Source of the DNA: Streptomyces sp. NRRL S-350
Lineage (GTDB): Bacteria > Actinomycetota > Actinomycetes > Streptomycetales > Streptomycetaceae
Length of the DNA stretch: 12,707 nt
Direction: 5' to 3'
Assembly: GCF_000719705.1 (NCBI RefSeq)
Contig: NZ_JOHO01000108.1
Span: 1 to 12,707, forward strand
In this document: positions 3,569 through 9,783 of the stretch, in pieces
How positions within the stretch are numbered: the stretch's first letter is position 1
How the letters are laid out: each line of letters begins with the position of its first letter
Made by a program: the position numbers and the translations under genes
The notes under the pieces: model-generated
Databases searched by the model: none
Seen by the model: only the letters and a program-made list of their open reading frames with translations
What the model was told of the DNA's origin: nothing

Positions 3569-3614
3569 CGAGTAGACGAGTCAACGAGCAGACGAGTCAA
3601 CGAACGGACGACGG
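3567..3614. repeat. 16-bp tandem repeat, about 3 copies
   Basis: Units at 3567-3582 and 3583-3598 differ at a single base (AACGAGTAGACGAGTC against AACGAGCAGACGAGTC). A degenerate third unit (3599-3614) merges into the next repeat. It is noncoding, in the tesB-alkB gap. Confidence 0.75.
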
Positions 3615-3657
3615 AGACGGCCGGACGACGGAGACGGCCGGACGACGGAGACGGCCG
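3607..3657. repeat. 17-bp tandem repeat, 3 perfect copies
   Basis: GACGACGGAGACGGCCG is repeated without any difference at 3607, 3624 and 3641. It ends 27 bp from the alkB stop codon. Perfect identity suggests recent slippage, so copy number may vary between strains. Confidence 0.9.
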
Positions 3658-3684
3658 GACGCACCTACGCCTCGACCCCGAGTG

Positions 3685-7706: not shown

Positions 7707-8567
7707 GTGCCGCGCATGCTCGACGTCAGCGACGAGGTCCGGTCCGAGATCGGCGACGACGAGGCCGACCGCCTCCTGGGCGGTGACCGCGCCCCCGACA
7801 GCTACGAGTGCACGTCCTGCCGGACCGCCGGCGACACGCACGTGGAGCCCACCAGCACCGTGCTCTTCGTCGGCGACGAGACCGCCGTGCTCGCCTTCGC
7901 CCACGCCCGCTGCATCCCCTCCCAGGTGGTGGCGGTCTCCGAGGAGCAGCTGGTCGGCGCCGTGCGCAGCATCAGCCAGTCCCAGACGGGCGCCCCGGAC
8001 CTCGCCATCCCCGCACCGGCCGGGGCCGCCCCCGCCCCCGGCGCCCCGGCGCCGACCCCGGGAATCTCCGCCGGAACCCAGCCGACCGCCCCCGGCCAGG
8101 CCGCCATCCTCGGCATCACCTGCGGTCTCGTCCTGCACGGAAAGGTCGGGCACGCCTCACTCGTGGTCGAGCCCACCGGCCCGGTCGGCCGCCCGGGCAG
8201 CACCTCGGGCGAGGACGAGTTCCTCGACCTCCTCCAGGACGCCGGCTTCCAACCCGTCGCCGACCTCGACGAGACCCCGGAGCAGCTGCCCGGCTGGTCG
8301 GTCCTGGTCGCGATGGGCAAGCTGCACGCGATCCTGCAGCCCGCAGCCGCGGGTGGCAGCACCGGCTGGTGGCAGGCACATCAGCCGCTGCAGGTCACCG
8401 ACGCCTGGCGGATGGCGGCGAGCCAGCTGTCCGAGGTGACCATGTACGCCGTTCCGGCCGGCATGGTGGGCCGCCAGCCCCGGGAAGACCTGCTGCGCCA
8501 AGCGCTGGAGCGGGCGGTGGCACTGGGCCAGGTCGTCGCCGCCTCCCTCCCGCTCGCCGGCACCTGA
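7707..8567 (+). CDS. Conserved-looking unknown protein, possible zinc site
   Basis: A 286-residue soluble protein that I do not assign to a named family. The GTG start is supported by GAGGAGA ending 4-5 nt upstream; an ATG three codons later is less well spaced. The N-terminal part (1-95) has Cys35-x-x-Cys38 (YECTSCRTAG) and His66-x-x-Cys69 (AHARC), spaced like a CxxC...HxxC zinc ribbon. Residues 96-130 are an Ala/Pro-rich linker. The C-terminal domain (131-286) is alpha/beta-like, with GITCGLVLHGKVGHASLVVEP, FLDLLQDAGFQPV and a closing helix DLLRQALERAVALGQVV. No signal peptide or membrane helix is seen. It is transcribed alone and closed by the hairpin at 8611-8654. Codon use is normal, so it is very likely a real, expressed gene. 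Confidence 0.85.
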   Translation: MPRMLDVSDEVRSEIGDDEADRLLGGDRAPDSYECTSCRTAGDTHVEPTSTVLFVGDETAVLAFAHARCIPSQVVAVSEEQLVGAVRSISQSQTGAPDLAIPAPAGAAPAPGAPAPTPGISAGTQPTAPGQAAILGITCGLVLHGKVGHASLVVEPTGPVGRPGSTSGEDEFLDLLQDAGFQPVADLDETPEQLPGWSVLVAMGKLHAILQPAAAGGSTGWWQAHQPLQVTDAWRMAASQLSEVTMYAVPAGMVGRQPREDLLRQALERAVALGQVVAASLPLAGT

Positions 8568-8610: not shown

Positions 8611-8654
8611 GCGCCGGACGGCGGCCGCCCCTTCATCGGGCCGCCCTCCGGCGC
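8611..8654 (+). terminator. Strong hairpin terminator after the 286-residue gene
   Basis: GCGCCGGA (8611-8618) pairs with TCCGGCGC (8647-8654). After a single C/C mismatch, GGCGGCC (8620-8626) pairs with GGCCGCC (8639-8645), leaving a 12-nt loop. It begins 44 nt after the stop codon. There is no U-tract, as usual for streptomycetes. Confidence 0.75.
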
Positions 8655-8721: not shown

Positions 8722-8928
8722 CATGAGCACCGCTCATGAGCGGACCTCATGGGCAGGTCTCATGAGCACCTCCCATGAGCAGACCTCATGAGCGGCACAC
8801 ATGAGCAACGCTCATGGGCACTTCCCATGAGCCCCACGCATGAGCACTCATGAGCCACCCGCATGACCAACACATGAGCGCCCCGCCACGCATGAACACC
8901 CACATGAGCAGCGCTCATGTGCACCCGC
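8722..8928. repeat. 16-unit CATGAGC array, 13-bp period
   Basis: CATG occurs at 8722, 8735, 8748, 8761, 8774, 8787, 8800, 8813, 8826 and 8839, exactly 13 bp apart. It then continues at 8849, 8862, 8873, 8891, 8903 and 8916 with spacings of 10, 13, 11, 18, 12 and 13. The heptamer CATGAGC is exact in 11 of 16 units; the others are CATGGGC (8748, 8813), CATGACC, CATGAAC and CATGTGC. The six bases between heptamers vary, often ending in CT so that the palindrome CTCATGAG forms. The array is noncoding: 13 is not a multiple of 3, and no ribosome site precedes the many ATGs. It lies after a terminator and ends 63 bp before the assigned start of the next gene. It is probably a cluster of protein-binding sites or a structured leader; I know of no named family. 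Confidence 0.92.
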
Positions 8929-8991
8929 CTGAACGCCCCACACTGGCCCCCCGCCCCGCATCCCCCGCCCCTCTCGCTCGTTGGCCCCTAC

Positions 8992-9783
8992 GTGTACAGC
9001 TACGACGTCTCCGCGTCCCCCGGCCGGTCCGCCACCGCCCCCCGCTCGATCCCGGGCATGCGGCCGTCGTACGACGCCGAACACCCGCACTCCACCACGC
9101 CGATCTATGACGAGCTGTACTCCGAGTACCGGCGGCTCTTCCGTGCCCTGCCCGGCGACCGCTCGGGCGAGGAGGACCTGGCCTTCACCGGATTCGCAGT
9201 CCGCGACGGATACCCGCGGCTCGGCGAGCAGCGCCCGTACTTGCCCCAGCACCAGGCCTTCCACACCCTCGCGGGCCAAGCGCCGGGCCTCCCCCAGTTC
9301 CTGGCGCCCCAGCCCCACAGCGCGGGCTCGTCCCCCAGCCATCACGGGGGTCACACCGGGCACATGCACCACACGGGCAACAGCAGCCACACCAGCAACA
9401 TGAGCCAGGCTGGCCACACCGGCAACCGTCCCCACGGACCAAACGCCTTCCAGCCCGGCAACAACAACCCCGGCACCCACCCCCAGCCCACCGCCCCCAC
9501 CAGCGACGGTTCGGGCTACGCCCCGGCCCCCGTCCCGCACCAAGCCCACTCCCAACACGCGAGCGCCCCGGCCCAGTTCACCAACGGCCAGGGGTGGGTC
9601 GCCGCCGGCTACCTCGGGCAGGTCCCGCATCCCATGGCCGTGCCCGCACCCGTACCGCCCGCGCCGCCCGCCCCGTCCCCGGTGATGGGCACGGCCACCG
9701 GTCTCGCCACCGCCCCGTCCGCCGGGGGCCGTCACCGCCAGATGCTCTCCCTCCCCCCGGGCCGCAACGGCGATCACCACTGA
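8992..9783 (+). CDS. Unknown His/Pro/Gly-rich protein
   Basis: A 263-residue protein from the GTG at 8992 (MYSYDVSA). An ATG at 9058 (MRPSYDAE) and one at 8917 inside the repeat array are alternatives. None has a good ribosome site, so a leaderless mRNA is possible. GC-rich third positions are clear from about 8990 on, which favours 8992. The only compact, ordered-looking block is about 36-73: TPIYDELYSEYRRLFRALPG then DRSGEEDLAFTGFAVRD. I believe similar blocks occur in unnamed streptomycete proteins, but that is from memory. Residues 109-149 are His-rich (HHGGHTGHMHHTGNSSH and so on, ten His). The rest is Pro/Ala/Asn/Gly low complexity, ending in RHRQMLSLPPGRNGDHH. No signal peptide or membrane helix is present. 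It is likely mostly disordered, and metal binding by the His-rich part is possible but unproven. It stands alone between the CATGAGC array and a strong terminator. Confidence 0.75.
   Translation: MYSYDVSASPGRSATAPRSIPGMRPSYDAEHPHSTTPIYDELYSEYRRLFRALPGDRSGEEDLAFTGFAVRDGYPRLGEQRPYLPQHQAFHTLAGQAPGLPQFLAPQPHSAGSSPSHHGGHTGHMHHTGNSSHTSNMSQAGHTGNRPHGPNAFQPGNNNPGTHPQPTAPTSDGSGYAPAPVPHQAHSQHASAPAQFTNGQGWVAAGYLGQVPHPMAVPAPVPPAPPAPSPVMGTATGLATAPSAGGRHRQMLSLPPGRNGDHH

Follow-up and report, generated by a model that had tools for sequence, protein, structure and literature searches.

The stretch of DNA analysed here (the window, 12,707 nucleotides of a Streptomyces sp. NRRL S-350 contig) carries, between two genes of the forward strand, an array of short repeated words in regular phase. 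Neither the upstream gene (7707..8567, +) nor the downstream gene (8992..9783, +, GTG start) has a Pfam or NCBIfam match, and the scanned window has no Rfam match at the gathering score. The spacer also contains a G+C-rich inverted repeat 3' of the upstream gene (8611..8654, +, read by eye), which is likely to act as its terminator, and a leader between the array and the downstream gene (8945..8991, +), defined by DNA matches that begin at query positions 386-396 (8945-8955) in most relatives of the genus and likely to be a promoter or 5' region. A preliminary description of this DNA took the spacer for an ordinary gap between a terminator and an unassigned gene; the gap is, however, one of many that carry such arrays. 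Elsewhere in the window, the perfect 17-bp tandem repeat reported near 3607 is present at 3605-3661 in 3.4 copies.

The array (8722..8919; no strand is assigned to it or to its parts) consists of 16 CATG words in the interval 8722-8928. As first described, the ten leading words lie on exact 13-bp steps (8722-8839, a block spanning 8722..8842) and the other six follow more loosely, at steps of 10, 13, 11, 18, 12 and 13 bp, the last five of these in the downstream part (8849..8919). The original count of 16 CATGAGC elements was too high, as 11 of the 16 words are exact CATGAGC on the + strand. Over the full window and both strands CATGAGC occurs 15 times, compared to a mean of 1.29 (maximum 5) in 200 shuffles, and a single copy lies outside the array, at 9399. 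The heptamer was said to be kept while the hexamer between copies varied freely, but the freedom of the hexamer is only partial: it frequently ends in CT, so that the next CATG completes a dyad, CATGAG-N5-CTCATG. The unit of the arrays is this 17-bp dyad and not a 13-bp direct heptamer repeat, which was rejected because the dyad fits the arrays read; the appearance of a direct repeat arises where linkers put CATG on a single 13-bp step, as they do in the window. Five exact dyads are present, at 8722..8738, 8735..8751 (which shares one CATG with the preceding dyad, as adjacent dyads of the 13-bp block do), 8774..8790, 8800..8816 and 8903..8919 (the downstream end of the array), together with six near ones that have one or two mismatches. 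Across arrays the linkers between dyads are usually 7-9 bp. Of 207 pairs of neighbouring dyads (non-overlapping, with at most two mismatches, less than 120 bp apart), 166 have their starts separated by 24-27 bp, most often by 26 bp (85 pairs) or 25 bp (53 pairs).

The pattern CATGRGC-N6-CATGRGC occurs at 23 places on seven contigs of the window's own genome (G000) and in nine of 70 genomes of the genus, with 14-23 copies in each of G000, G008, G062 and G066 and one copy in each of the other five. Exact dyads single out the same four genomes (44 in G000, 55 in G008, 54 in G062 and 47 in G066), compared to 0-2 in the remaining 66; a reversed-pattern control gives 0-2. Wider samples gave 0-2 exact dyads in the other 390 of 394 genomes of the family (a sample that includes the 70 of the genus) and in the other 393 of 394 genomes of the class (a sample that includes G000 and 39 more from the family sample), so that dyad-rich genomes number four of the 748 different genomes searched and the other 744 have 0-2. 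A scan of GTDB contigs found 112 stretches with a three-word pattern; among the 80 of these that were listed, 71 have two spacers identical or one base apart and are plain tandem 13-mers, several exact dyads are found only at loci of S. novaecaesareae (eight) and K. xanthocidica (six), and one further locus has a single exact dyad. The carriers of dyad arrays are one small clade of Kitasatospora soil bacteria. Long tandem arrays of CATGAGC in unrelated bacteria, namely a Jiangellaceae MAG (L091, where the step shifts from 13 to 12 and 11), a Bdellovibrionales MAG (L147) and Fontibacillus (L141), look like plain tandem repeats. A viral source was considered and set aside, the sole IMG/VR match being an unrelated AT-rich 13-mer tandem; the window array has no match among plasmids, and one G062 array has none among phages. 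The word GCTCATGAGC was rejected as the key site, being present at 5-10 copies per genome in four array and four array-less genomes alike. A search of G016 and G017 for arrays of other motifs yielded high-count words that, at the places inspected (five in G016 and three in G017), lie mainly inside called genes.

Both flanking genes of the window array were present in all 29 relative loci examined, which had been picked by DNA matches mostly covering the start of the downstream gene. Among the 18 relative gaps printed, 15 have no array and are 110-588 bp long (14 of them 110-282 bp), whereas the gap is 344-373 bp in three array species and 424 bp in the window. The hairpin 3' of the first gene and the leader before the second are readable whether or not a gap carries the array, which lies between them in the window; since the genes, hairpin and leader are kept in array-less relatives, the array was added to the spacer. 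The orthologous gaps of G011 (L026) and G020 (L043) have short repeats of their own (CCTCGAC-like and CCGGAAACCC-like, by eye) that are not dyads; perhaps this spacer tolerates repeats in general. Arrays occupy the same spacer in at least two of the four species in 11 cases (in one of these, beside a histidine kinase gene, only that neighbour is common to G000), and in all four species at two spacers, that of the window and one after a PadR gene. Orthologous arrays also differ by units that came or went in blocks of 25-26 bp. A tree built for 16 genomes from six gene pieces (5,703 columns, with some missing) unites G000, G062 and G066 at 99.9/100, and G008 joins them at 79.9/77; a one-gene tree does not resolve G000 and G008 and requires two changes. 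A single origin of the arrays is likely rather than proven.

Whether the dyads act as DNA or as RNA hairpins may be judged from changes in their arms, for which 251 non-overlapping dyads with at most three mismatches were collected from the window and 33 fetched stretches. Two-sided changes at positions 2-6 were found in none of the 251, a count to be read with the mismatch limit in mind, because it trims double changes. At position 1/17 both sides are changed in nine dyads compared to 4.2 expected, seven of the nine to G..C, a slight trace of covariation that counts against a DNA-only reading. Among 109 changed arm pairs at co-directional loci, in sense orientation, 85 are mismatches, 20 are G-U and four are Watson-Crick. 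The extension to CATGAGC is present on at least one half of 222 of the 251 dyads (205 expected if the sides are independent). RNA folding of array strands is better than that of shuffles in four of four tested (z -4.7 to -6.5), as expected of any dyad array. A family of RNA hairpins or terminators, in which stem changes would be compensatory or G-U, was rejected on this evidence: arm changes are mostly uncompensated mismatches, which favours recognition as DNA, by a dimeric protein. The arrays are most likely the sites of such a protein, and the earlier impression of a multi-site protein-binding element is supported.

The arrays are essentially extragenic. In 44 array rows with at least four words each (three of them without an exact dyad), 612 of 7,100 array bases fall inside called genes; 17 rows overlap a called gene, nine by more than 5 bp and one over more than half of its length, and some of these overlaps may be misplaced starts, the calls being those of a simple gene finder. 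The 42 rows with two called neighbours comprise 28 co-directional, 13 convergent and one divergent gap, compared to 39, 14 and 15, respectively, among 68 background gaps of at least 60 bp in the G066 region. The deficit of divergent gaps has a Fisher p of 0.004 with orthologous rows counted as if independent, and 0.06 after rows were collapsed by eye to 23 loci; the enrichment of convergent gaps is then not significant (p 0.26). The 40 neighbour genes scanned have no common function: they encode enzymes of unrelated kinds, transporters, a small number of regulators and unassigned proteins.

The reading that best accommodates these observations, to which we give about an even chance, is that the window array belongs to a large set of loci, 17 of them in G066, built from a 17-bp dyad recognised by a candidate dimeric protein of this Kitasatospora clade, and that the occupied arrays form an insulating block. 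Dimers would load side by side, perhaps cooperatively, at intervals of 25-26 bp or about 2.5 helical turns, and would together make up a nucleoprotein block over the intergenic spacer, which would stop or slow read-through by RNA polymerase between convergent or tandem genes; alternatively, the block may mark and fold a domain of the chromosome arm. Insulation by a nucleoprotein block is our best guess at the effect of the arrays. The dyad and its phasing, its confinement to the clade, the shared positions, the conserved half-sites and the scarcity of compensating changes are observed; the protein, its cooperative loading and the insulation are proposed.

It is unlikely that a single transcription factor instead uses the dyads as dispersed operators to control the neighbouring genes, perhaps as sites that respond to a gamma-butyrolactone-type signal of the clade. 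Such a regulon is suggested by a gene of the ScbA/BarX family (L197:13728-14774, minus strand; NF041195, 215.9 bits, cut-off 200) in the densest dyad region of G066, a gamma-butyrolactone synthase whose orthologues of 88-94% identity are confined, among 70 genomes, to the four with arrays (the next best identity is 41%), and by arrays 37-50 bp 5' of the monooxygenase gene close by, at three loci (G000, G008 and G066). Some arrays, these among them, are closer to a start than to a stop codon, a point against the insulating block. The co-occurrence with the synthase is, however, one event, and whatever gene arrived on that branch would show it; the neighbours of arrays are functionally diverse, and divergent promoter gaps are nearly avoided. 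The synthase belongs to an island (L197:11694-14774 in G066, L188:4604-9798 in G000, and L203 in G008) with a monooxygenase, a P450 and a HAD phosphatase, of which the fetched loci of G062 contain the synthase alone, and no autoregulator receptor gene was seen in it. In G000 and G066, another array has a gene for an ScbR-type receptor (202.7 and 200.4 bits, cut-off 150) approximately 3-6 kb away, but the promoter gaps of these receptor genes (L190 and L193) contain no CATGAG dyad, only one lone CTCATG word in G000, and ScbR was rejected as the binder for this lack of a dyad in its own promoter gap. In the window's own genome, a SARP-like gene (below NCBIfam cut-offs), the ScbR-type receptor gene and a second ScbA-type gene (326.6 bits) lie side by side (L190:1693-5027), a few kb from CATGAG arrays. 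Two other regulators were tried as candidate binders and rejected. The PadR protein whose gene is flanked by arrays is widespread and not specific to the array genomes: of the 66 array-less ones, 53 have an orthologue (68-92% identity) and one more has it broken in two, and the recognition region is nearly identical in the nearest of them. An MmyB-like regulator (L198:17835-18650) was not found in the fetched, partial loci of G000, G008 and G062. In G016, but not in G017, CGAAACC words form a coding repeat in the C-terminal part of the PadR gene (L265:8389-8503).

It is also improbable, slightly more so, that the arrays are functionless and satellite-like, their units multiplied within and between nearby gaps by local duplication and gene conversion. 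Perfect 13-bp unit repeats on two contigs of G000 (C50 and C61), duplications of 25-26-bp units by which one locus of G066 departs from that of G062, and strong regional clustering would all be explained in this way. The copying of whole units would nevertheless preserve N5 and linker along with the half-sites, and plain slippage would leave the spacer as conserved as the core, whereas the half-sites are 91-96% identical between orthologous arrays, N5 45-60% and the linkers 60-79%. Between G066 and G062, identity is 95.6% in half-sites, 60.0% in N5, 79.4% in linkers and 82.2% in flanks, and between the other species pairs 91.4%, 44.6%, 59.5% and 74.5%, respectively, with each pair counted both ways and an alignment that may favour half-sites and may pair non-orthologous dyads; when only dyads with well-aligned linkers are taken (34 ordered comparisons), half-sites are 92.2% identical and N5 55.3%. 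Inversion of N5 was rejected, exact inverses numbering none of 20 for G066-G062 and one of 89 for all pairs (null means 0.10 and 0.80). Exact dyads also remain at 44-55 per genome even though, in the flanks of orthologous arrays, 18% of aligned sites differ between G066 and G062 and 25% between the other pairs. Selection on word and spacing is supported, as the preliminary description had proposed, although the selected unit is the 17-bp dyad at a phasing of about 26 bp and not the heptamer at 13 bp. Two observations were to have overturned that proposal: absence of the array from relatives that keep both flanking genes, which is the case in 15 of the 18 gaps printed, and occurrence at unrelated loci as a generic expanding repeat. 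The arrays do occur at unrelated loci, so that both are partly borne out, but as many as four species keep them in the orthologous gap with conserved half-sites, which a generic expanding repeat would not produce.

The idea that the dyads are sites of chromosome-domain organisation or segregation (matS-like, Noc-site-like or parS-like), marking part of one arm, is more doubtful still. In G066, the one genome mapped in full, ten of the 17 exact-dyad loci on the 7.6-Mb main contig lie within 103 kb (1.45-1.56 Mb), compared to a maximum of six in 100,000 uniform draws, and all loci are 1.8-3.5 Mb from dnaA (3.654 Mb), 16 of the 17 on one side of it; several arrays are also close together in G062 (C19) and G008 (C2). 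Against such a role, further loci of G066 are dispersed at 0.17-0.99, 1.81-1.83 and 6.15 Mb, the cluster is 2.1 Mb from dnaA rather than near the replication origin as parS sites would be, and restriction to four species would not be seen in a segregation system of universal kind. The iterons of an origin or partition locus, to which the array was first likened, are not supported by the same map, in which no exact-dyad locus is within 1.8 Mb of dnaA. Least probable by far is that the dyads are extragenic palindromes of the REP/BIME type, moved by a Y1 (RAYT) transposase or serving as RNA hairpins where transcripts end. Extragenic position, palindromy and arrangement in arrays speak for this. 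Against it, conservation is restricted to 6+6 bp around a variable centre, arm changes are mostly uncompensated mismatches, the window has no Rfam match, and Y1_Tnp (PF01797) is unmatched in G000 and G066, matched in G008 (part of the domain) and G062, and matched in 27 of 66 array-less genomes (29 of 70 in total).

The insulating block may be part of a more elaborate system, a rather doubtful extension in our estimation: a putative protein of the clade would coat the dyad arrays, block read-through and fold or mark a 100-kb arm domain at the gamma-butyrolactone synthase locus, sites and protein having been gained jointly on one branch. If the link to the autoregulator gene is true, signalling would be joined with chromosome organisation. 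A site system present in four of 748 genomes and under selection in unrelated spacers would be an uncommon natural instance of DNA-protein recognition at many loci that probably arose once; its 17-bp dyad offers an exact probe with which to find the protein, and its arrays a test bed for insulators in bacterial spacers.

No name for this family of arrays was found in the literature searched, in agreement with the first impression that no named element resembles it. Neither the dyad (in three spellings) nor GCTCATGAGC occurs as a whole word in that literature, where a description under another spelling is possible; CTCATGAG occurs in one paper, on nucleosome positioning in yeast. Plasmid centromere and iteron arrays of the sopC type consist of head-to-tail repeats in regular phase that contain inverted repeats. 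The dyad arrays are likewise phased repeats holding inverted repeats, but they occupy many loci of the chromosome arms and do not keep their spacer sequence, and ScpA, next to a single array (L200), is the one partition gene noted in the scanned neighbours. The response elements of ScbR/ArpA autoregulator receptors are dyad operators of a dimeric repressor, similar to the present sites in form and in the presence of an ScbA-type synthase gene in the dense region; they differ in sequence, in that the dyads form long arrays at many loci, and in that the ScbR promoter gap has no dyad. MatP/matS, Noc and parS sites are palindromic and concentrated in one region of the chromosome, but they are scattered single sites of broad lineages, whereas the dyads form dense arrays in one clade. 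REP palindromes are described as 20-40 bp long, fixed in sequence and often tagged by GTAG/CGTC (PMC3733652). Like REP/BIME elements with their RAYT enzymes (PMC2817692, PMC3733652), the dyad arrays are extragenic, palindromic, arrayed and lineage-specific; unlike them, they are not fixed palindromes of 20-40 bp, conserving 6+6 bp only with N5 and linkers free, they number about 50 exact copies per genome, and two of the four array genomes have no Y1 transposase match. The TraB recognition repeats (clt/TRS) of Streptomyces plasmids and chromosomes are described as 8-bp repeats (PMC4170104). Like the dyad arrays, they are short words repeated at several sites of streptomycete chromosomes; the dyad unit, in contrast, is 17 bp and confined, among the species searched, to four.
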